Origin: Laccaria trichodermophora
Lineage: Eukaryota > Basidiomycota > Agaricomycetes > Agaricales > Hydnangiaceae
Length of the DNA: 64,000 nt
Assembly (NCBI GenBank): GCA_018417955.1
Contig: JACTVC010000035.1
Location: forward strand, 1 to 64,000
Direction: 5' to 3'
Shown piece by piece: positions 37,121-54,930 of the stretch (within the stretch, counting starts at the first letter, position 1; the number at the start of each line of letters is the position of its first letter). A program made the translations under genes and the position numbers. The notes under the pieces were generated by a model, which saw nothing but the letters and a program-made list of their open reading frames with translations, searched no databases and had not been told where the DNA came from.

Positions 37121-39182
37121 ATGGCGACCTTGATCAACGCTCCCATCGACGAAGGCCAATTCGATGATGCTCCTCGCCCAAGCCAGCTTTACATCGATAC
37201 ATACGATCCAGCAGAGGACGTCAACGCTCTTGACTGGCTAGATTCCCCATTGGAAGACGATGACGATGAGTTTGACGACACTTATGATGAGAATCGCGTA
37301 GAGGATGAGGATTGGGAGATCGCAGAGCGAGGTATGCCATGTTAACCCTCCGCAATTTGATTCCTTAAAATGTTAAAATGATTACAGATTTTACGAAGCA
37401 GTATAACCGTCTCAAACAACATGTTGCGGTACGAACAGGCAACGCTCAAGGTACTTCGTCCGCGCTAAACCAATCTTCGACCGTCGCGGCACTTCCTGCT
37501 GTAAACCATCCACGCACTACGATTCCTTTGAGTGTGCCTTCCAATCGATCGAATGGAAAAGATAAAACAATCGATCAACTCGCCTCGCTCGCAAAATATA
37601 GCTCCCGTATCGCAAAAATTGACGTTCCATACGTAATGGGTGTCGGGGTCAACAGGAAAGGTCCTAGCGCTCATGCGAACATAAAAGACAAGAGCGATCG
37701 AGCTACGAATGAGCAGGTTCTTGACCCACGCACTCGCCTTATCCTGTTCAAGATGATTGGACGAGGCTTGCTTCACGAAGTTAACGGCTGTGTGAGCACG
37801 GGGAAAGAGGTGCGACTTTTTTGTATCGTCCTCGTGAAAAATATCAATGTCCAATTATTAGGCAAACGTCTACCACGCCGTTACCGCAGACGCCTCCCAC
37901 CTTGCGCTGAAGATCTACAAAACCTCTATCCTCGTGTTTAAAGATCGCGCCAAGTACGTCACTGGAGAGTATCGTTTCAGGCGGGGGTATAGCCGTAATC
38001 CCAGAAAAATGGTACGTCTTTGGGCCGAGAAGGAGATGCGGAACCTTAAGCGGCTAGCCGCAGCTGGCATAAAATGCCCTGACCCGCTCGAAGTGAGAGA
38101 GAACGTCCTTGTAATGACATTTGTTGGTAGCAAGGAGGGCTGGTGGGTTTTTCACGTTCTCCTCAAGGTTCCATGTAAACAACATCTCTTCAGGGCCTCC
38201 CCGCGTCTTAAAGATGCGGAGCTCCCTGCGGCGTCGTGTGCCGCGCTTTATCGACAACTGGTATTAATAGTTCGACGGATGTTCCATGAATGCAAGCTCG
38301 TTCATGCCGATTTGTCGGAATACAACATCCTTTTCCACGAAGAAAATTTATGGATCATCGATGTTTCGCAAAGTGTGGAACATGATCACCCTTCCGCCTT
38401 CGATTTCTTGAAGAGTGATATCAAGAATGTCGAAGATTTCTTTGGTCGGCTCGGGGTCCGATGTCTCGGTCTCCGACGATGTTTTGAATTCGTAACCAGA
38501 GATAAACAGGGTGAAGATGCTGGGCAGGAAGAAGCTGTGTTGGACAAGTGGCTTGAAGAAGAGGGTGTGGGAGAGATTGACCAAGAGGAAGGCGATTACG
38601 CCATACCAACCTCCGAAAGGGCGGAGGAAGATGCGGCCCATGAAGACTCTGTTTTCCTTCGATCTTTCATTCCACGGACGTTGAATGATGTGTATGATCC
38701 AGAGCGGGATGTCGCAAAGCTCAGTCGCGGAGAGGGGAGTGAGCTAATATATGCTGATACTATCGGGGTTGTGGGCCCCGAGGGCGATGACACCAAGCAG
38801 GGTCTGGTGCAGAAGAGAACAAGGGTTAAATTTCAAGATCAAGCTGTGGAGTTGTCGGAGTCGAACACTATGGCCGACCGCAGTGACGCTGATGTTGAGT
38901 CGGATGAAGGAAATGGGGAGGAGTTTGTTGATGACAGTGAGGACAGTGACGATGAGGTTGAAGGAGCGAAGAAAGAGGGCTTTGTGGATCGAACCCCTCG
39001 AGGTCATCGTCACGAAGATCGCGACGCTAAAAAGGTTTCTCCTACCACATTTTGCTCTCAAAGATGCTAATTGTTGTTGACAGGAGCGCAAAAAAGCAGT
39101 AAAAGCAGAGGCCAAGGAAAAGCGGAAATCTAAGATGCCCAAATCGGAGAAAAAACGGATTATGAAGAAGACGAAGAGCTAG
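37121..39182 (+). CDS. RIO1: RIO1 atypical serine/threonine protein kinase
   Basis: Five exons (37121-37331, 37388-37809, 37862-38142, 38194-39034, 39084-39182) give 617 aa. An acidic N-terminus (LEDDDDEFDDTYDEN) precedes the RIO domain. The ATP-binding part includes GCVSTGKEANVYHA with the catalytic lysine in LALKIYKTSI. The RIO signature EYRFRRGYSRNPRKMVRLWA follows, then catalytic Asp344 and Asn349 in VHADLSEYNIL and metal-binding Asp361 in WIIDVSQSVEHDHP. An acidic segment and a very basic lysine-rich tail close the protein. RIO1 acts in late cytoplasmic maturation of the 40S ribosomal subunit. All catalytic residues are present, so it should be active. Confidence 0.96.
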
Positions 39183-39377: not shown

Positions 39378-41834
39378 TTATGCGTCCGTCACACACCCAT
39401 GGCTCGCGTCTGTAACACTCTTAGTATACTTGTACAACGTTCCCTGGGATACCTTGAGTGCAGGTGCAATCCAAGACTCTTTTCTCTTCATTAACTCCTC
39501 GGGTGAGACGCGGAGCTCGATAGTGTTCTTAATGGCATCGACGACAATGGTGTCTCCGTCCCTGACGAGCGCTATGGGCCCACCAACCTGTGCCTCGGGA
39601 ACGACGTGTCCAATACAAAATCCATGGGATCTGAAAATTACAATCAGAACGAAGAACAAGCAGCGGTTAGCCATTGATATGTTGTCAGAGCGCAAAAACA
39701 TACCCGCCGCTGAATCTTCCGTCTGTGAGACAGGCAACGTCCAAACCCAAGCCGGCTCCCATGATTAAGCTTGTGGGTTTCAGCATCTCAGGCATGCCTA
39801 TAATGGGAAGGAAGTGTTAGTTGAAGGTTACATAAAGGAGTTATGATGGGAACAACAAGAAAGGATATCCCGGGAGTGCCATCAATGAGGGTGAAAACGT
39901 GGAGTAGATGGGAGAGCGGAAGAGATACGAGATAAGAAATACTGACCAGGTCCTCCCTGAGGGCCGAGATACCGAAGAATGACGACCGTTTTTTCACCCT
40001 TTTTGATAGACCCGCTTTCGACGGCCTTGACGAAATCGTCTTCTGTGTCGAAAGTCCGTGCCTTGCCCGTAAATTCCAAGCCTTCTTTGCCTGTAATCTT
40101 AGCCACCGCACCGCCAGGAGCCAGATTGCCTTTGAGGATTCTGTGAAAGTTCCGTATGTCTAAGCAATCCTGCGGAGTCTTGAAAACAAACGATGGATGA
40201 GACCAACCGGATGTGTCCTGTCTCTTTTATAGGCTTATTAAGAGGTCGAATAACGTCTTGTCGAGAATCCAGTTCGCCGTATCTGTGTGTCCATTCCTCA
40301 AGGTTTTCGCCGAGGGTTCGACCCGTGACAGTCATATTATTCCCGTCGATTAGCTTGTTCTTTAGCAAGAACGCCAAAATTTCTATTCATTGACGTTCCC
40401 ATCAGACATACACGTGGATGTGGCGAATGAAATCTTACTTGGGATTCCACCGATCTTGTACACATCTTCCATGACATATTTGCCACTGGGTTTGATGTCG
40501 GCGAGGAAGGGGGTGCGGTCTGACACGTTTTGGAAGTCGTCGATATCCAATTTAATGCCCACGGAAAGAGCCATAGCTATGAGATGCAGGACTGCATTAG
40601 TAGAACCGCCTAGAATGATTGTGAGGACCTGATAGAATGGTTAACATTGAGGTATAAGTGCCGTAAACAAGACAGACCATAGCATTTTCAAACGCGGATC
40701 TAGTCATGATGTCCCGTGGAAGTATGTTTTTCTCAAGAAGGTTGTACATAACTTTCCCAATTGAAGCACACTCCGTGTGTTTTTCCAGGGATTCGGCTGG
40801 GAAGGATGATGATCCGGGGATTGTCATCCCCAGTGCCTCCGCCGCACTTGCCATAGTGTTTGCTGTGTACATCTAGTATATTTCTCAATTCAGTTGAGCT
40901 GAGGGTCTGACTAGATGGAGACTTACACCACCACAAGCGCCTGGTCCTGGGCAGGCATGTCGAACGGTATTATATCGTTCGCGTTCCGCTTCGGGTGTCT
41001 TTCCGTCCTGCAGGTACTTTCCGTAGGACTGGAAAGCGGACACGATGTCCAACTGTGGCGCTCCTTCACACGACCCGGCACGAATTGTCCCACCATACAC
41101 CATAAGTCCAGGGCGGTTGAGACGCCCAACTATTCAAAAAATGCAAAACATTTACGGGGATAAAGGGAGCAAGAATGCGAAAAAAACTGACGGGCCATCA
41201 GAACACCAGGCATATTTTTATCGCAGCCGGGAACGACGACCATCCCGTCGAGATGGTGTCCTCCGGCAGCGGTCTCTACTTGATCTGCAATCAGGTCTCG
41301 GGATTGGAGGGAGTAGGACATGCCGCGCGTTCCCATGCTGATCCCATCGCTGACTCCAACGGTACCAAACTGGTAGCCTATGATACCAGACTGTGTAAGT
41401 GAAGCTTTGATTTCTTGACCCAGACCAAGGAGATGTTTATTGCATCTGTATTGAAATGTTCAAAACGCGTTGGTTGAGAATAATAAAGGACTTACGGATT
41501 ACCCTCGTACCTAACTCATACGGTCAGAATGGCATGGACACAAGCCGTAACAGCAACACACCAGACGCTGGCGACGCCGACCATGGCTTTGTTGAAGTCA
41601 TCATCCGTTTTGATGCCGTCCGTAGCATACAGCATGGCCTGGGGAAAAGAACGTCATTTCCTTCCGCCTTTGTTAATTGGGAAGTCAACATACCTGACTA
41701 GCACCTTGGTCTTTGGGTTGGGTAACCACCCTGCTGTGCCTGTTCATGATGGGCTTGTCGCTGCATCTTGAGGTAGTGCAGAACGCCCTAGAGGCAGTGA
41801 GAAACCGAGGATGAGGGAACGATTTGGAAGGCAT
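39378..41834 (-). CDS. ILV3: Dihydroxyacid dehydratase, mitochondrial
   Basis: Eleven exons (41834-41694, 41638-41562, 41510-41496, 41445-41192, 41129-40927, 40872-40678, 40628-40439, 40382-40208, 40140-39947, 39797-39704, 39630-39378) give 596 aa. The start [18 protein letters not shown] is a basic, serine-rich mitochondrial presequence. IlvD/Edd hallmarks follow: YEGNPCNKH (Cys79), [11 protein letters not shown] (Cys152), [17 protein letters not shown] (Cys222/Cys228, Fe-S ligand region), [21 protein letters not shown] and [17 protein letters not shown]. It dehydrates 2,3-dihydroxy-isovalerate and -methylvalerate to keto acids in valine and isoleucine synthesis. Exon 3 is only 15 nt. A TTG-initiated extension upstream is possible, but ATG at 41834 is the natural start. 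Confidence 0.96.
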
Positions 41835-42673: not shown

Positions 42674-44333
42674 ATGGAGAGGCGCGAAAATGACCCCAGG
42701 CAGAGCTCGCTGCCAAGCAGTCTCATCCCTCACTTGTTTACCGCTCCTCAGCAACCCCGCGACAGTTCAACCAGGACAACCCTCGCGCCATCTATCACCC
42801 CATCGGTGGCAGCAGAAGAGGCACCATTTGATATTGAGCAAACCTACATGCATGTCGTGTCGCCCTCATTTCCTATGACGCCCCTTGTGCCACATTCCTC
42901 CTTTGAAAGTAGACCAAGTTCCAGGACTTACTTTGCCTACGAGTCTGAACATCACGATCGACAACTCGCCTCCAGTTCCGTGAGCCTTGCAGAACTTTCC
43001 GATCAAACACTTCATCGACTCGAACCTTCCATTCCTCCCGTTCATGGCCAACGATTCGCCAGCCCGATCTACAGCGACCCAGTCTTCCATGCATCCCGTC
43101 CTACAATTCCGTCGCGCACGCCAAGCTACACTTTCCCGCCACCCGCCACCCGAGAAAATGTCCTACAGCGCACTTCATGGAGAGAGGGTGAGGCGGGGCC
43201 CTCATCCTTGCTGCCAGCTATACGAACAGACCAACGAACAAGCAGAGGACGTCGAGGCTCAAGTCAACCTGCTCGTCTTGGGCCTCAGACGGAGATGTTT
43301 GAGAGAGGAAGCAGTAGCTTCGATCCCGAAGTACCATTCGGAGACATGGCTAGACGGGAGAGTGAAAGAGAGGGTTATCTGCTCTCATCCGGCTCGCTTG
43401 GCCGAAGTACGTACTTCATTTTCCCTGCTTGACGCCTAAGTATTAACTGAAAAATCTCAGCAGGACTGTATGGACCGTCGTCTTCCCACAGCTTTCAGGG
43501 TTTACTACCACCCTTGCTGGTTCCCAGCTCAGGGGACCTTTTTGGGCAGCAAAATGTATATACATACCCATCCGCTCCACTTAACATTACATCTTCTGGG
43601 TCTACATCAACAGGCATGCGTGGTGGAAGTCCCGGATTAGAGCCGATGTATCCATCAGAAACTCGGTTTGATCCACCGAGTGCGTTTCGTTCAACTGAAT
43701 ACGGAAGTGACGAGGCGTCTCAGAAGGGGAAAAAACGAAGGGCGGGGAGGAGGGCAGATTCGGTGGAAATGGACAACGATAGCAACCCACGCAAGTCTAG
43801 AAATCCAAGAAAGACGGCTGTCGCGTGTAACTTCTGTCGAGGCAAGCCCCTTTCATTTGAGAAAACCAAATTGACCAACTTTGGCTACAATAGGGCGAAA
43901 ACTTCGCTGCAACGGTGCAAAACCTTCGTGTTACAATTGCACTGTAAGGAAATTCGAATGCGAGTATGTACCAATACAAAGGCGTCGGGGTCCTGGGAAG
44001 GCGCCCAGAGGAAGCCGGTCAAAGAAAGCGAGCACTTCTGGGCGAGTATCAGATGCTAGCTTGAGCACGAATGCTGCAGATCGACGTCCAAGTCCACTAG
44101 CGCCCGCCGACTATCCTCCTGACATACTTGTACCAGAGCTCCGGCCATACACATCTGGGATGTCTCTTGATAAGTTCTCTTTCCAACCGCCTGATTCATC
44201 TCCACCCTATCCATCTGCGCCGATTCCGGGGCGGATGAGGGAAATGGGGCCGCACGCACAGACACCCCGAAGTCGGGAAACAAGCTCAGAAGATGGGTCG
44301 GACACTGAGGAGTTTTATCGCAAGATGGGATAA
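42674..44333 (+). CDS. Zn2Cys6 fungal transcription factor with C-terminal zinc cluster
   Basis: Three exons (42674-43406, 43461-43841, 43894-44333) give 517 aa. The first ~330 residues are a low-complexity serine/proline-rich region. A basic segment (KGKKRRAGRR) is followed by the zinc cluster: ACNFCR (Cys367, Cys370), then GRKLRC (377), PSC (384), YNC (387) and EC (394), a complete six-cysteine pattern. The tail is proline- and serine-rich. The intron inside the cluster, directly after CNFCR, is GC-AG (GCAAGC ... TAG). The acceptor of intron 1 is a tandem CAGCAG, so one residue is ambiguous. There is no fungal-specific transcription factor (MHR) domain. Targets unknown. Confidence 0.9.
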
Positions 44334-44898: not shown

Positions 44899-47854
44899 AT
44901 GAACTCCAACGACCACCGGATTCGTCACGAAGGGCTCGATCGGTCAACAGCTGCGGGTGCTGGTACCTATAGCAGCGTCCAAGCTCATCTCGGCAGTGCC
45001 CCAGGTAAGCAGACAACTTCCGTCGCCACTTCCGTTCAACTCACTCCTAATGCGCGCACTTTCCCCGTGTATCTCAGCAGAAACCCTCCGGTCAGAGTTC
45101 ACTTTGCTTGTAGCTGGCTGTCGGGGAGGCAAGTACTCGTCTCTGACCGCAGTCTGCACCCAAGGAGCTCATATATACCGCTTCCCTCGGATCAGGCAAA
45201 ACGTCCTTTCTCCGCCTACTCCTCGATACCAGCGACATTTCCCCCAATGTCGCCAAAGACCAGCTTGCCTCCGTCGCCAAATTCGTTCAAGGCTGCAGTG
45301 GACATACGTCCCACATCAGAACTGCATCAATTGATATCAACCTTGATGTTGAAGGGAATGGCGGCAGGCAGTGCTTGGGTCTAACACTCATCGACACTCC
45401 TTCGCTCGACTTTCAAGACGAGGCCACTTCTGAGCGGTTGTTGGCTGAAACCATTCGTCTTATTGACAACCGTTTCACAGAAGGTCTTGAGGATGTGAGC
45501 GCCCACATAATACTTCTGTTTTATTACTGACGTCGGCCACAGGAGTGGAAAGCCCACAGCGGTGACCGCTACGTTCACCTGTATGTCTTCCCATTCCTTC
45601 GTCTTTCCTTTACTCACTGAGCGCCCTCAGTTGCATCTACTTTTTGGATCCCGACTTGATTGTGCCACCCCCAGTCCCAGGCCCCCCCGCGCCACCCTTT
45701 CCCAGGGCTCGGACCAATAGCTTTTCTCAACCAGAGCAAGAACCCGTTATCCTTGAGCCGCCAGTAACCACGAATCCCCTTCTGTATCGGCCGACACTAC
45801 CTGCTGCCGACATCGCGGCGATACGTCGCTTGTCCGGGCGAGTAAATGTACTCCCTGTAATAGCCAGAGCCGACATTCTTTCCAATGACCGTCTGGCTGC
45901 CGTAAAGGTTGCTATCAGACGGGATTTGGCGGATGCGGGTATTGGTTTTGGTATATTTGACATGGATTCACACTATTCACATACTCCCGATGACTTCCCC
46001 GCTACAAATCGGGCTGAGCCATCAAATGGCTACGGCCACCCTAATGGGACGCCTTCCTCAAACAACAACACACCTCCTACGTCCCCCGTCGCTCCTTCAA
46101 TCTTGCGTTTACCTTATGCGCTCATCTCACCAGATATGTATTCTCATAGTGATGGGGTTGCTAGAATACCCCTTTCGCGCCATGAACTTACCCAACAGTA
46201 CACACCCTTTACTCACTACCCTCCACCTTCGAAATTTCCCCGCGGCAAGTTTATAAGAAGTTACCGTTGGGGTGTCTTGGATGTATTGGATCCTCTGCAC
46301 AGCGATTTCCTATCCCTGAGGTCTGCCATTTTCCATCATATGGAGGTACGAACACTGTTATGACCTTTCATTAGACCAAAACTGATTTATTTATTTTCAT
46401 AAAGACCCTACAAAAATATACCCGGGAGTATCTTTTTGACAAATTTCGGACTGACTATATGCAAAATCGCCCTTCCTCGCGTCATTCAATTTCACATCTT
46501 TCTCACATGGGTCCCATTCCTCATAGTTCTCGTCCCATCCTCGCCATTGACACAGCCCCCCACTCAAATGTCCACCGGCCTGCATCTATGAGCGTTCCCC
46601 GCGACGTTCCGCCAGGTGATCGTGATCCTCGCACAAGTCCTGTAACACGACCCTTGCCGGAGAACAACACAACCAGCGCATCGACTAAGGCTGGCGCCCT
46701 TCGTCAGTCTTCGCGCTTTCTCTTGGATTACCCATCCTTAACAATAAAACCGTCCTTAGGAACAACTAAACAGCGCACCAAGAAGATCACCGTTGCCTGC
46801 AACTTTTGTAGATGTAAGACTGGTCTATTGGATTGTCTCTTATAATTCATTGACCCCTTTTCTACACTAGCGAGGAAGCTTAAATGCGACGGTGGTCGAC
46901 CTGCCTGCGGACAATGCTTAAAGCGGAGTAATCCGTGCGATTACATGCCCCAGAACAAACGCCGCGGAACTATGAGGCAACGTAACAAAGGCGACGAAAG
47001 CGAGAGCGAGTCAGGCGACGAAAGATCTGCTGAAGCAGAGGAGCCTTCTCTGTCACCAGAAATCCCATCGCAGACATTATCACACCGGGGGTCTATTGTC
47101 GATAAACACCATTACGAGGATGCATTCCCGCCACAACTTCCTCCAATGTCCACCATCCATGAGCGACGCGAAGACCATCCTCTGGCTTCTTCTTCTAAAC
47201 ATCACCAAATGGGTCGAGAACAGCGTACTTTTTTCCCAGACAACGAATTGCCGCACATTGCTACCCTTTCGCTGCCAGACCCTTCTCCATCAACACCAGT
47301 CCCCATGTCAGCCCCCTCTCTTCCTCCCCTTAGGCCAGCATCCGAACAACAAGCTGCTCAAAGGAAACGCGCGGCCACAGTGCCGGGAAAGAGCAATCGA
47401 AATTCATCCAGTTCAGGTCCAAAAGTAGTGGCATGTAATTTTTGCCGAGGCAAGTCATGATTAACAGACAATATCAATGTTCTGACAGCGTCTAACAGCT
47501 CGTAAGACAAAATGTGATGGGGCCCATCCCGCTTGCGCAAGTTGTGCTCGCAGGCAACTTCCATGTAACTATGTTCATGATGCTGTTGTTTCCAACGGAC
47601 CGTCACAAAAGAAAAATCGGCGCTCTTCAACAGCCAAACCATCAGCCGATTCTTCTCGTTCTATTTCTCCGCCCTCTTCTCGAATGGTGCCTACTCCATC
47701 ATCAGCCATGTATGACGGACATGATCACCGGGAGGTTGACACGCATCTTGATGATGAAGTTGACCTGAAACGGCCTTTGGAGCATGGGGACATGGGTCGT
47801 GCGTCGAAGAGATTGAAGATGGACAATTCGCCAGCTGCAGCTGGTATACCCTAG
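44899..47854 (+). CDS. Septin-like GTPase fused to two Zn2Cys6 zinc clusters
   Basis: Eight exons (44899-45004, 45078-45128, 45196-45494, 45543-45580, 45631-46345, 46405-46813, 46871-47449, 47499-47854) give 850 aa. Residues ~40-430 are septin-like. There is a P-loop AGCRGGKTS (48-56) and a G3 site DTPSLDF (119-125, with Ser replacing the usual Gly). CIYFLDP and the AKAD-like G4 ARAD (243-246) follow, and the closing helix is TLQKYTREYLFDKFRTDYM. The exon that encodes this helix runs without a break into a linker and the first zinc cluster (Cys535, 538, 545, 552, 555, 562). A second cluster follows after ~165 residues (Cys728, 731, 738, 745, 748, 755). Introns split both clusters after CNFCR. 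The P-loop intron and the second-cluster intron have GC donors. Septins form membrane filaments and zinc clusters bind DNA; the combination is unexpected. Confidence 0.87.
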
Positions 47855-48193: not shown

Positions 48194-50370
48194 ATGTTCT
48201 CCTTCCGCCGAAAGCCCAAGAAGGCACCGGAAACTCCTCTAATTCGCACCTCTCCTTCTCTCCCAGAGCTCAATAGCCAGGGCATTCCATGGCCTGAAGA
48301 CCTGGTGGATATAGCTGCAATACGGCACTCGCCACCTCCTGAGGAGCTCGTTCATCAAGGTGCGGCTAAAACCTCTTTCCAGGGGAGTGACCATGCCGCC
48401 ATACCGTTCCATAAACCATTTCGGCCCTCTGTAGAGAATCCGAAAGCAGGAGGCACGATTTCTTCTTTATATATGTCTTCTGTGCCGCCCTCCGCGTTCG
48501 ACAACAGGAAGGCCCCCCCTTTATCGGCTGGCAGGTACAGCCAGCGACGGGCTCGCATTCCACCCACATTCAATCTAATGGTCAGTCATTTATGATTTTA
48601 GTGCGCGTCGTTGGCTGTGCTGATGCACTGGATCAGGTTGTTGGCGGCAAAGGAACGGGGAAGACTTCTCTACTGCGCTTGCTATTGGAAACGGCCGACC
48701 TATCACCCAGCGCCACAGATGATCAAAAGGCAGCAATGGACAAGTTTCTCAAAGGATCTACAAATACCACTCCAGCAATCCAGACCGCTTGCGTGGAAAT
48801 TTGCGAGTCGCGCTTCGACAGGGTGTTGTTTTCTGTGATCGATACGCCTGGACTTGAATTCCAAGAGGGACGCGAGTTGAAACTTGAGCGTCAAGTGAAC
48901 GCTGTTCTTAAGTATGTCGACGCACAGTATGCAGATACCATGAGCGAAGTACGTCGTTATCTGCTTGTTCACTCACCCTTCACGAAACGAATTATCTTTC
49001 AGGAATCCAAGGTCGTTAGACAGAGCAAAGGAGACCAGCATATCCATCTGTACGTCGAACCCGTTTCAGCGTAACACCGTCACTCACTTTTTGTGTAGTT
49101 GTATCTATATGATTGACCCAGCTTCAATCATTAGTGCTGAGGAACGACGTTCCTTGTCCACCCTTCCAACAAAGACGCGTTCAGAGACCACCGTCTCCAA
49201 TCGTGACCCGCCCGACCTTGTACCCGACACGTCGTCTGAAGATGAATCTGATGGCGAAGACGGCTCTCCGCTGACGATGTCTCCCGCGGAACTTAGAGTC
49301 ATTCGACGACTGTCAGCGCGCACCAACGTTCTGCCAGTGGTCGCTCATGCCGACTCACTAACAGATGACAAATTACACTCTATCAAGAATGCTAGTAAGC
49401 TCAAGCTGGTTGTCAGATTCTCATCCTTATGCTTAATTTCCCTTCTAGTACGTACAGGATTTGCTGAAGCAGGCATTGATTTTGGCGTGTTTGGACCAGC
49501 AAAGACTCCTGATCTCACCGCTACTCTGAAGAGACAGACTCACTTTTCTGATACAACCGAAAACGGAATTGAAGAAAACGACATAAATAGTTCTGTTACA
49601 GAAAGTGATGAAGAGGATGCGGAAGAAGAGCGGAAGCCTCGCCCGGTTATCAAGCTTCGCCCAAAACGCCACGGTACTCGAAATCTTTCCCGCTCGCGCT
49701 CTCGGAGGGATCTCTCTCAAGCTGCGGAAGATGATCGTCGTCCGGTATCGCCTGATGCTACCGACCACGAAAGCGTGGCCAATGTCCGTTTCTCGGCGCA
49801 CATTATTGCAAAGACGGACCTCAGTGAACTGATGCCTTTCGCATTAATCGCTCCCGAACCCAGCAAGCGCCGCCGTCGCCCATTTTATTCAGATGGCGTA
49901 TCATCGACCACTAGCCAGCAACCATCCGAAGATGACCATTCACAATCCAGTGACGTACCACCCACCCCCATGTCAGCTTATAGTTCAAGAACTCTCCCAT
50001 ACCTTCAAGGGCCGCCCGATGATTTGAAGGGTGTTTTTGTCAGAAAGTTCAGATGGGGGAAAATTGATGTCCTTGATCCAAATCATTGTGATTTTGCCGC
50101 ATTACGAACGGCAGTGCTGTCGACTCATCTCAAGGTTGATTTTATCATTCTCCCCTCTACGCTATTCTGACTTTACGTTTGCAGCTTCTCAAAGTTCGCA
50201 CCAAGGAGGTGCTTTATGAGAAATACAGGACCGAAAAACTTCTCGCCAGGCGCGCAACCCGTCAGATCTCGGAAGAACAGAGACAGCGGTTGCTAGAAGG
50301 TCAGTAGTCCATCGACATGCTTTATCATAGAGCTAAAGAAACTTTTCTTGTAACAGAAATGGGGCTCTGA
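48194..50370 (+). CDS. Divergent septin-like GTPase
   Basis: Seven exons (48194-48580, 48637-48948, 49003-49049, 49099-49394, 49449-50134, 50185-50299, 50357-50370) give 618 aa. After a ~125-residue polar N-terminus comes FNLMVVGGKGTGKTS (P-loop 132-139), VIDTPGLEF (G3, 198-204), CIYMIDPASI, the G4-like AHAD (331-334) and FRWGKIDVLDPNHCDFAALR. The end is a C-terminal helix (LLKVRTKEVLYEKYRTEKLL) typical of septins. Between G4 and the end of the G domain lies a long charged insert (ESDEEDAEEERKPRP, RSRSRRDLSQ). It is the tandem paralogue of the fusion gene upstream, sharing intron positions around CIY and the IR-AGIDFG block, but it has no zinc cluster. The last coding exon is only 14 nt. Confidence 0.88.
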
Positions 50371-50633: not shown

Positions 50634-51742
50634 TCATCTTGACCTCGCCAGCTTGTCAATCTCGTCTTTCGATAGCCCATCAAGCCGATGTAGCAGGTAA
50701 TCCACCTGATATTGACTTGTGAGCACAATGCAGTATTCCAATCAGTGCAAACTTACTTCCACTTCCTTTGTTAATGGAATAATATAGCTTTCGTACAAAT
50801 CGACAACGCCATCCACATCTATTTTCCCGGATCCGTCTACTTTTCCATTGACCATGAGTTCCCCTTCAACCCCGAAATCTTGTGCATATGTCGTAGCTTT
50901 CTTTTGTAATCGCAAGAGTAGCTTGCGCTCTATCTCTGGTTTAGTTATCAACGCTTCAAGTGCTTTTCTGTTTGAATTGAGAATGTGGGGTATAAAATCG
51001 GCAGGTTTGTCCAAGAATTTTGACTCTGAAACAAATTTCCCTGTCCACAAGTTGAAGCGACTAACCCGATAGCTTCGAAATGAAGTCGACACGTACCATA
51101 GTGAACACGCTTGCTAATTGATTGCAGAACTTCAACGTCAAGGGTTGCTGCACTGCCGTGATTTCCATCATCCTCGGACTCTTCATCTCCGACGATCCCG
51201 TCGGCGTGCTTTTTTGTCGCTAAAGCGAGCGTCGCGCGACGAGTGATACGGGGAACGATTGCGCGAGTGTAAAAAGATAAGATGGAGGGATTTGCATTTA
51301 TCTTGTTGGGATATAAGATCTGGGGAAAGGAAAGTGGAGGGAGGACGGGGTCGGGTAGATCTGATGTAAAAGGATACTCGTCCGGGCTGCGAATGTCCTG
51401 GGGTATCAGACGTCGCTCAAGAACGAAGGTTATTTCAAATACCTCGTGTAACGTCGCGCCTTTGCTACTCAGGGGTACGAATTAGTGTTGTGCTATTTAA
51501 AAAAGGAACGACGCACCATGGAACGTCTCTGTTTCTTTCAGAAACCACTCTAGCCAACTACCATCGAAACCAAGATCAGTCAACTCTTTGAACGCCCCAC
51601 GTTGATACATGCGCGCATTGTGAGCGAACTGGGCGCGTTCGATGAGAGAAAAAATGATAGTATCCTCCAGCCTTGTTAAAACAGACCGTATCCTGTCCAA
51701 GGAGAGGAGATCCTCTCCCGTCATAAAATTTAAAGACGGCAT
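50634..51742 (-). CDS. ARO7: Chorismate mutase
   Basis: Five exons (51742-51517, 51465-51444, 51386-51097, 51040-50757, 50705-50634) give 297 aa. The features of the eukaryotic AroQ-type enzyme are in order: [67 protein letters not shown], an acidic loop, [23 protein letters not shown], and [26 protein letters not shown]. The C-terminal helix has [18 protein letters not shown]. The enzyme turns chorismate into prephenate for phenylalanine and tyrosine; fungal homologues are inhibited by tyrosine and activated by tryptophan. Exon 2 is 22 nt. It converges with the septin-like gene and diverges from the NAS2-like gene. Confidence 0.93.
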
Positions 51743-51934
51743 CTTGCAGATATTCAAGAGTGGGCAAGAGGTAGAAAGAAAGGCCGAATAAAGCCGGTGG
51801 TCAGATTCACAAAAACCGAAATGTCATGAACGCGTCAAAATTTACCTCCGTATGGAACGCGACTCGACGCTGTTTGGCGAAGCGCACTGAACCAAATATA
51901 AGGCTAATTAGCAGAATCTCTCTGTTACGTCGGG
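51743..51934. promoter_or_regulatory. Divergent promoter of ARO7 and the NAS2-like gene
   Basis: 192 bp between two start codons on opposite strands. I cannot identify a clear general-control (TGACTC) box here. Confidence 0.45.
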
Positions 51935-52640
51935 ATGGGTTTTATTCTTCCATCTCCAGAAAGCCCAATGGAACAAACTCGTGCCCTTATTGCCCAGAAA
52001 GATGGCATCGAAAGCCAGATCGAAACACACCTCGCAATACTCAAAGCCAACAATGTTACAATGAACACTCCCCTCGTTGATCCTGAGGGCTTTCCACGCG
52101 CAGACATCGATATCTACGCTGTTCGAAACGCGAGAGTCCGGATTATTGAACTGAGAAATGATTTGGATGCTGTGATGAAAGCTATTTCGAAGGCTCTCGA
52201 AGGGATATTTGACCCTGCTCTGGTGGTGACGCAATCTACGACCGAAGCCACTCCAATCCAGAACGTTGCCCCCCTGCCATTCGCGAGGGTCGACGGTGTT
52301 GCCCTGGGGAGTCCCGCCGCTGAAGCTGTACGTATACCATCGGCCTCACAGTAATCCGAACTTACATGAGACTTTTAACGATTCAGGGACTTCAACGGGG
52401 CGATTTGATAGTGAAATTCGGCCAACTGAGCAAACAATCATTTCCAAGCAGCTCCATGCAACCGCTAGCAGACCTCGTCGCGGCAAGCGAAAACGTACGT
52501 CCCGCATCCATGTATACATTGATCATCTTTTGACTGGCAGGCAGCGTCATATTGCGATTCGTGCGCTTCGCGGTGAGCAGACGAAGCTTTTGACACTAAC
52601 GCCTAGAAATGGATGGGGAGGCCGAGGGATGCTAGGGTGA
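51935..52640 (+). CDS. 26S proteasome assembly chaperone, PSMD9/Nas2 type
   Basis: Three exons (51935-52327, 52387-52494, 52545-52640) give 198 aa. The N-terminal coiled-coil half (ALIAQKDGIESQIETHLAIL, GFPRADIDIYAVRNARVRI, ELRNDLDAVMKAISKAL) is the Nas2 N domain. PFARVDGVALGSPAAEAGLQ and GDLIVKFGQL begin a PDZ domain that ends with LTLTPRNGWGGRGMLG. The protein escorts Rpt5 during assembly of the 19S base. The last acceptor is chosen from two neighbouring AGs (GGCAGGCAG); only the second keeps frame. Confidence 0.93.
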
Positions 52641-52791: not shown

Positions 52792-54930
52792 CTACATTCT
52801 AGCCTTCCGCTTATTCCCAAAGGTAATCGCAAAGTTATTGTCAATCCGATTCTTCGCACCCTCTTTAACTTTCTTCACATCTTCAATCGCTGCAGCTGTG
52901 CCGCCTTCCAGGACCCATCTCCTGAACACTTCCACATCCACCTCACTGGAGTGTCCCTGTGTTGTTCTAGACCAGATTGCGTGTTCAAGGAGATATACAG
53001 ATGAAGCAATGCTGGCGACAAGCATAAGAGCTGGTCGAGGGATCAAAGGTGGCAGAGGCTGAGTATACGCTGTACGGAGCTCTTCAAGAGCATTCTTTAA
53101 GAGGTTCAAAGGACTCTGAAGATTTTCCTGCAGATCTGAAGGGGCACTGTTGATCACTCCGTTCGCCCACTAAGTTGCAAGTCAGTAAGCGCTCGAAGAT
53201 GTGTATATGTTACGCACAGAGGTGAATGATTCCATCGATTCGAGATCTTGAGCAGACCTTGCAAGATCAAGGGCCAGGACAACCACCGTTCCTTCCCATA
53301 TCCTGGAAATGTAAGGCACACAGCATTGAGAGAAAAAGAGCAAAACTCACTTTTCCACCAATGCATCTCGGATAGAGCGACCGATTCCGTTCTCTTCCAT
53401 ATAACCAACTCCGCCAAGAGCCACCATAGCTTCCTCCATCCCAGCACAAGCCTTCTCTGCAGCGAAAGCCTTGGCCACAGGCGTCAGCATCCTAAGTCTG
53501 CGAAGCTCATCAGTTGTGGCAACACCGCACTCTGACTTTCCCAGCAGGCTAATGACACCAAATGTCAGGTGGGTCAGAGCTCTGTACAGCAGATTGATAG
53601 ATGCCAGTTGGGCGACATGAATTGGAGTGTCCTGAAGGAGTTGACTTCCACCCTTTATAGAACGGACTTTGGCATATGCCGTTGCAATGGAGAGGCATTT
53701 ACGCAAATTTCCGACTGAAGTCGCAGCAGACCATAGTCGCGTTATGTTGAGCACTGGCGTTATATTCTTGATACCTTGGTTGGGTTCTCCCATTAAGTAC
53801 GCTTCCGTCGAGCTCAAAGTTAGTTCAGCTGTTGGTAGTGCGTGGGTCCCGATCTTGTTCTTCAGCCTGTGAACGAAGATGTTGTTGCTCACAGGGGATG
53901 ACGGGGGGTTTGAAGGTTCTCGCAGCAAAGGAAGCCGCAGAGGAACGAGGAACAACGAGAGGCCCCGCGATCCATCCTCGACGGTACCTGTGCGAGCAAG
54001 GGCAACAGACACTTCGCTATCCGTTGCACTGGAAAACCATTTGAAACCGTTTAGGCTGTATTTGGGCCCAAATGAGTTGCTCGTTCCGGTGCAGACCGCC
54101 GTCGTTTCGGTTCTTGACACGTCTGAACCCCCTGCACGCTGGAGAAATCATTAGTCTCATGGAGTAAGAGCGAGTAAACACTTGTGTACTTCTGTCATCC
54201 ACTGTCCTGATGTAAACGCAAAAGACGGGTCGCGGCTATCAACCATTTGGTGAGGTGTTCTGGTATTCTGGGAAGACATCTTACCTTATGAGTCTTGGCA
54301 GTATCTTCTTCTTCATTTCAGGAGTTCCGATGAGCTCAATTACTCGGGCACTTCCATCTGTCATACTCAACGGACAGAATACCTGAAGGAAAGTTAGTCT
54401 TACGCAAAGAAGCCAAGCGAACGACCGTACCTCGTGGGTATCTCCAACCATCATCATCATCTTTGCGAACCCATAAACACGACTGTGCTCCTTGAACTTG
54501 CGTTCATAGAATATACTAGGAATCCCCTCCTTCTGAGCAACTGCTTTGAGGTCCCTCCATCCTTCACTTGTTTGCAGGTTGTCCACTCGGCGACCCCATT
54601 GGTCGTATTGAGTCAATATTGGCGGAGAGATCTTATTGCCATCTCCAAGGGAGCGGATTGAGGTGATGATTTCTCCGCCGAGGCGGATTAGGTCTGGCTC
54701 TATTTGTTGGAATACACTGAAAGGTAGTTATAATTTGTGAGGTACCGACTGCTAAGGATGAGCACAAACCTTGTGGGGAGTGTACGTTTCAAAAGATCTG
54801 GAAGAACGGGATCGCTGGTGTAAACGTTCTCCTCCTGAAAGGGTACCTGACATAGTAGTGCTCTGGTAAGGAGAGAAATTCGACATTAGATGATAGCGCT
54901 CACAGGTTGGAAGCCTTCCTCAACTCGCAT
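52792..54930 (-). CDS. Acyl-CoA dehydrogenase, AidB-like
   Basis: Eight exons (54930-54904, 54846-54770, 54716-54431, 54382-54285, 54235-54190, 54138-53351, 53302-53218, 53169-52792) give 594 aa. The short first exon (MRVEEGFQP) leads into VPFQEENVYTSDPVLPDLL, as in AidB-type N-termini. Core motifs follow: FTSGQWMTERAGGSDVSRTET (FAD and substrate loop), YSLNGFKWFSSATDSEVSVAL, EPNQGIKNITPVLNITRLWS and GVGYMEENGIGRSIRDALVEKIWEGT. The C-terminal domain is helical. AidB relatives are FAD-linked dehydrogenases with uncertain natural substrates; some bind DNA in bacteria. No peroxisomal SKL-type end is present (the end is KARM). Confidence 0.92.

Follow-up and report, generated by a model that had tools for sequence, protein, structure and literature searches.

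A septin-like domain joined to two Zn2Cys6 clusters in a predicted protein of Laccaria trichodermophora and its relatives in the Agaricomycetes

Septins are known as filament- and membrane-associated proteins, and many transcription factors of the Gal4 type, which carry Zn2Cys6 clusters, act as dimers. Gene F, located in a 64,000-nucleotide stretch of DNA from Laccaria trichodermophora (the window; positions 1 to 64,000 of contig JACTVC010000035.1), encodes a predicted protein in which a septin-like domain is followed by two such clusters. Passages of PMC8801916 and PMC6323724 report Group 5 septins outside the core heteropolymers, which would fit a septin free for recruitment elsewhere. No description of a septin and Zn2Cys6 fusion was found in the open-licence literature, passages of PMC4035324 and PMC5604158 included (subscription papers lay outside the search), and the septin surveys PMC1931588, PMC6323724, PMC11238149, and PMC8801916 do not use the word 'zinc' in their main text. 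The initial annotation of the locus knew of no described protein that joins the two domains; this holds for the open-licence literature but not for databases, in which at least 120 entries, mostly machine-named, carry both Septin and Zn_clus. These results are consistent with a fusion that is undescribed in the literature, yet already present in databases.

Gene F lies on the forward strand, starts with an ATG at 44899, and ends with a stop codon at 47852-47854, forming one spliced frame of nine exons that encodes 830 residues (Table 1). As initially annotated, the frame combines a septin-like G domain with two clusters that each have all six cysteines. The predicted length has changed, however, from 850 residues, a figure obtained when an intron in the linker ahead of the first cluster (cluster A) is kept; with this intron retained the product has 849 or 850 residues, according to the acceptor chosen for exon 2. 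A Pfam search with the 850-residue version matched Septin (E = 4.4e-30, 105.3 bits in three stretches; cut-off 26.2) and Zn_clus (E = 1.7e-18, 66.9 bits in two stretches; cut-off 21). These two domain matches are far beyond chance. Nothing except Septin and Zn_clus was found by Pfam in F at E values up to 0.1, and Fungal_trans in particular was absent at that threshold; Rfam at gathering scores gave no match in the window. The closing septin helix and the first CNFCR half-cluster had been placed in a single uninterrupted exon, 46405-46813. The genomic DNA is indeed open across this segment (open reading frame 46375-46845), but the two elements probably sit in two exons, since P0001, the closest relative among the matches listed, lacks the 19 residues QSSRFLLDYPSLTIKPSLG encoded by the linker intron. 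No stop codon lies inside this intron and the genomic frame is open through it, so the fusion is independent of its splicing.

The full-length product was compared with approximately 5.8 billion proteins, giving 199 matches at E values up to 1e-5 among 7990 scored candidates. Counts given below out of 120 refer to the 120 of these 199 matches that were listed, all of which carry precomputed Septin and Zn_clus domains. P0001 (828 residues, 96% identity, from contigs of at most 3990 bases) lacks all eight F introns when aligned to the window. Other entries from its source, lgn, run straight into introns (P0130 and P0134 after FHHME/FHHMK, P0298 before RKLKC), so P0001 is best explained as a frame derived from complementary DNA. 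In four further lgn entries (P0043, P0243, P0280, and P0282), a single frame covers the closing septin helix together with two clusters.

An alternative is that a septin-like gene followed by a double-zinc-cluster gene have been joined by prediction only. The septin and zinc parts were therefore also searched separately, so that the length filter favours unfused forms; 120 of 279 septin-part matches and 120 of 132 zinc-part matches were listed, and the ends of 25 of the former and nine sequences of the latter were inspected. The 25 septin-part matches were mostly single-exon pieces running into introns, together with seven annotated models without zinc clusters. P0122, P0123, and P0129 end within the linker, P0121 ends 57 residues from where the closing helix begins and its tail does not resemble that of other F relatives, and P0147, P0175, and P0211 are cut short ahead of the closing helix or at it. 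For two of the seven, a second half was located under a neighbouring locus tag on the same contig, namely P0122 with P0248 in Termitomyces and P0123 with P0251 in Tricholoma furcatifolium. However, both second halves start at MPQNKRRG, right after cluster A, leaving this otherwise nearly invariant cluster in neither half, and the same two genera also have fused entries (P0020 and P0009). The pairs are therefore taken as annotation splits. Among the sequences inspected, separate genes in relatives were thus represented only by splits that lose cluster A and by a few truncated models. Given the continuous frames of the five lgn entries and the fusion in 120 of 120 listed relatives (though retrieved with a fused query), we regard two genes or a gene-model artefact as extremely improbable and are almost certain that the fusion is real.

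The same architecture recurs in other Agaricomycetes. The sources of F relatives include Agaricales, Boletales, Atheliales, Jaapiales, Russulales, and Polyporales, each order being represented by a single species that was looked up. The closing helix could be recognised together with exactly two clusters after it in 103 of 120 models; in these, the successive spacings have medians of 100, 190, and 121 residues, and the middle eighty percent fall within approximately 92-107, 174-213, and 111-131 residues. Two stretches of the linkers are also conserved, one resembling RP[IV]LAI[DE] (99/120) and the other ELPHIATL (106/120). On this comparison of sequences, the F family is one in which both domains occur at near-constant spacing in many Agaricomycetes. 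By the searches made, F is present at one locus in this genome. A metagenome entry from the septin-part search, P0133, has, within one frame, a linker of only around 17 residues from the closing helix to a CNFCR half-cluster, and is perhaps a divergent lineage or a decayed copy.

The septin-type identity of the N-terminal part is indicated by its profile match (PF00735, E = 4.4e-30) and by a structure model, whose predicted septin fold ranks above other GTPases. The fold alignment (VIA-align) covers mainly residues 37-424 of the model, and the absence of other folds is uninformative. The motif AGCRGGKTS occupies the P-loop position assigned to it at first, but is one residue short of the normal septin GxxxxGK[ST] used as the G1 motif in passages of PMC1931588. 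A shortened GxxxGK[ST] is found in all 95 relatives with a locatable P-loop. The remaining 25, in which none could be located by pattern, are mostly models that skip the P-loop exon or start late; three of these (P0006, P0019, and P0035) formally match GxxxxGK and are read as models that skip this exon. That annotations often miss the P-loop may be because its intron has a GC donor. At the G3 site F has DTPS in place of DxxG, and the final position in relatives is Ser in 116, Ala in one, Thr in one, and a gap in two of 120. At G4, ARAD replaces xKxD, with Arg in 102, Lys in 12, and the final Asp in 119 of 120 relatives. With a short G1 and no intact G3 throughout the family, the label 'GTPase' appears doubtful for F, while the septin-type domain of the initial annotation stands.

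Passages of PMC6323724 describe Cdc3 residues R360, W364, and H374 as kept in all septin groups. Their counterparts, with positions matched by eye, are R in 120, W in 119, and H in 109 of 120 F relatives. Together with the binding of septins to membranes and the long, low-confidence linkers, which could be cut or masked, this conservation would suit a latent regulator, whose septin part tethers F at septa or membranes until nucleotide state or cleavage frees the clusters to the nucleus. The degenerate G1 and G3 motifs argue against such a mechanism, as does the lack of a polybasic motif before the G domain, none having been seen by eye (no dedicated tool was used). The neighbouring septin D, by comparison, has the basic stretch RYSQRRAR ahead of its P-loop. 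A membrane-to-nucleus switch, proposed initially, thus found no support in the sequence, and we consider the latent-regulator model unlikely.

Both clusters of F are complete Zn2Cys6 clusters above the Pfam cut-off. By pattern, at least two complete clusters are present in 105 of 120 relatives and one in the other 15 (merged neighbours counted), and the zinc ligands are kept in 115-119 of 120 alignment rows. Basic residues lie between the second and third cysteines of both clusters (RSRKLKC and RARKTKC) in nearly all rows, and at cluster A the profile matches the GAL4, HAP1, and PUT3 chains among solved structures. These features favour DNA binding by the F clusters. The weaker matches of the zinc clusters to solved structures include Cep3, a budding-yeast kinetochore Zn2Cys6 protein (1.2e-4). 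By analogy F could be a structural chromatin or kinetochore protein and not a gene regulator, in keeping with its strong conservation, its single locus in the searches made, and the action of septins in cell division. The Cep3 match, however, is limited to the cluster (residues 14-55 of the chain) and nothing links F to centromeres, making this role quite unlikely. The clusters might instead bind protein or RNA, with F acting as a cytoplasmic septin cofactor; passages of PMC11238149 report that AspE of Aspergillus nidulans interacts with core septins stage-specifically. The basic residues kept in nearly all rows and the match of cluster A to GAL4, HAP1, and PUT3 render this very unlikely.

F is flanked by a zinc-cluster gene upstream (Zn1) and a divergent septin gene downstream (D) (Table 1). 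D has a full-length P-loop (GGKGTGKT) and DTPG. Between conserved blocks it carries extra stretches of around 55, 114, and 57 residues, compared with 52, 49, and 36 in F. F scores 205 bits against D (two stretches summed) and 57-86 bits against five core septins of the genome. Aligned by eye, F and D have three introns common in place and phase. Of the core septins, judged by eye from exon pieces, none of five has the first two of these introns; the third is missing from two, lies around four codons off in one, and is not covered in two. These scores and intron positions identify D as a paralogue of the septin part of F. A tree of 18 F proteins, four D proteins, and five core septins holds each group together and places F and D outside the five core septins, albeit with one chosen row dropped (P0014, P-loop unmatched), two core septins on long branches, and less than half of one core row filled. 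The tree was rejected as proof that F and D are sisters, because three single groups always leave one branch between the core and the rest, and the case rests on bit scores and introns.

Inspection of the eight relatives above 1100 residues among the 120 revealed merged gene models. F is merged with D in P0006, P0013, and P0023, and a Zn1-like gene is merged with F in P0017, P0027, P0082, and P0083 (the last with a half cluster); P0095 shows neither merger. The orders Zn1-F and F-D thus both recur, the former also in Boletales (Lanmaoa, P0083), and no single entry shows all three genes. A segmental tandem duplication of a zinc-cluster and septin pair, followed by fusion of the middle two genes, is suggested by the gene order Zn1-F-D and is supported for the septin halves, but was rejected for the zinc halves: Zn1, cluster A, and the second F cluster (cluster B) resemble some zinc clusters elsewhere in the genome at least as closely as they resemble one another.

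A phase-1 intron interrupts each of the three clusters of the region right after CNFCR (donors 46814, 47450, and 43842), and in some zinc clusters elsewhere in the genome an exon seemingly ends or begins at a comparable position. This intron is not distinctive, since some of those clusters (L014, L016, and L019) likewise show what seems to be an exon boundary immediately ahead of the RK motif. Three introns of the region have GC donors (45129, 47450, and 43842), one in the P-loop, one in cluster B of F, and one in the cluster of Zn1.

Pfam septin matches occur at no fewer than five other places in the genome, only the best candidates having been scored. At least five septin genes (Cdc3, Cdc10, Cdc11a, Cdc11b, and Cdc12) are described for Coprinopsis cinerea in passages of PMC10287680, and Cc.AspE is named in a passage of PMC4624876. 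Elimination would leave D, or F, as a candidate for AspE in this genome.

Table 1. Features of the F locus and its surroundings (window coordinates)
Feature	Position	Strand	Remarks
F exon 1	44899..45004	+	Holds start codon 44899; from gene model and identity to intron-free P0001
F exon 2	45081..45128	+	Strand running into P-loop (FTLLVAGCRG)
F intron, GC-AG	45129-45195	+	Sits in P-loop; GC donor 45129
F exon 3	45196..45494	+	GKTS, switch I-like HTSHIR, DTPS (G3 site)
F exon 4	45543..45580	+	EWKAHSGDRYVHL; intron positions common to gene D
F exon 5	45631..46345	+	CIYFLDP, IRRLSxRVNVLP, ARAD (G4 site), RSYRWG; genome Pfam Septin match 45800-45970
F exon 6	46405..46702	+	Closing septin helix YTREYLFDKFR and first linker part with conserved SRPILAIDTAP
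F linker intron, GT-AG	46703-46759	+	57 bases, in frame; missing from P0001
F exon 7	46760..46813	+	KQRTKKITVACNFCR, first half of zinc cluster A
F exon 8	46871..47449	+	Cluster A (second half), linker of low confidence, cluster B (first half)
F intron, GC-AG	47450-47498	+	Within cluster B; GC donor 47450
F exon 9	47499..47854	+	Second half of cluster B, tail, stop
Gene Zn1	42674..44333	+	Upstream of F; ~516 residues, one Zn2Cys6 cluster, Pfam Zn_clus 1e-08
Zn1 model exons	42674-43406, 43464-43841, 43894-44333	+	First acceptor uncertain by 3 bases
Gene D	48194..50370	+	Downstream of F; 618-residue model, divergent septin, Pfam Septin 2e-44
RIO domain	37862-39067	+	By Pfam
Dihydroxy-acid dehydratase fragment	40885-41130	-	By Pfam
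Possible chorismate mutase	51497-51820	-	Resemblance by eye; single open stretch gave no Pfam match
Nas2_N	51908-52351	+	By Pfam
Acyl-CoA dehydrogenase	53347-54144	-	By Pfam

We propose that F, a protein of around 830 residues in which a divergent septin fold precedes two Zn2Cys6 clusters on linkers of low predicted order, would be a nuclear DNA-binding protein, most likely a transcription regulator. Neither Fungal_trans nor a long helix follows the clusters, by Pfam and the structure model respectively, and the septin fold stands in front; on the simplest reading, the septin fold would supply the dimer or bind D. It would act as a dimerisation or partner-binding module, with itself or with D, and not as an ordinary GTPase. 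With two clusters per chain and long linkers, it could help place the clusters on paired, spaced sites. The septin part of F and D would share an ancestor, a divergent septin, perhaps of Group 5, that had already separated from core filaments. Several points weigh against this proposal. The P-loop of F still fits the looser rule [AG]x4GK[ST], and some nucleotide chemistry is possible because the switch I-like pattern with [HR]T is present in 108 of 120 relatives. The clusters and linkers have low confidence in the structure model, so that their arrangement is not predicted, the partnership of F with D is drawn from gene order and kinship, and the nuclear location is one that we infer. We give the mechanism as a whole, in which each step past the anatomy is a reading of sequence, about an even chance.

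The occurrence of the same unusual protein in many mushroom-forming fungi suggests that a septin has been recruited to work on DNA in these organisms. If true, a strongly conserved protein of this kind would show a septin fold to be capable of regulation or dimerisation on DNA, and F would offer a handle on the open question of the role of Group 5 septins. A broader scenario, which is speculative and in our view doubtful, is a class of DNA-binding septins conserved across Agaricomycetes. Here a Group 5-type septin would have left the filaments, lost normal GTPase motifs, and gained two clusters, and would now, as a nuclear dimer with the neighbouring septin, read a septin-dependent event, for instance septation or clamp-cell division, directly onto DNA.

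F shares with the core septins (Cdc3, Cdc10, Cdc11, and Cdc12; Groups 1-4) the septin fold with its closing helix, the R/W/H positions, and a G4-like ARAD. It differs from them in a P-loop one residue short, in DTPS where they have DTPG, in inserts of around 50 residues after YFLDP and further on, in its two added zinc clusters, and in the lack of a polybasic motif visible by eye. With Group 5 (AspE-type) septins, F and D have in common weak septin motifs and a position outside the five core septins of this genome, in a comparison made without an AspE sequence; D, aligned by eye, also has Pro where passages of PMC1931588 report Pro in four Group 5 septins. Zinc, in contrast, is not a word of the main text of the four septin surveys. 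Like Gal4-type factors, F has complete six-cysteine clusters in which basic residues separate the second cysteine from the third; it differs from these factors in having two clusters around 190 residues apart in one chain, a septin domain in front, and no Fungal_trans domain by Pfam at E values up to 0.1. A septin-like domain joined to others is also known from a multidomain septin of the dinoflagellate S. minutum, described in passages of PMC11238149, though its partners are SMC and HSP70 domains in a protein of 4484 residues.
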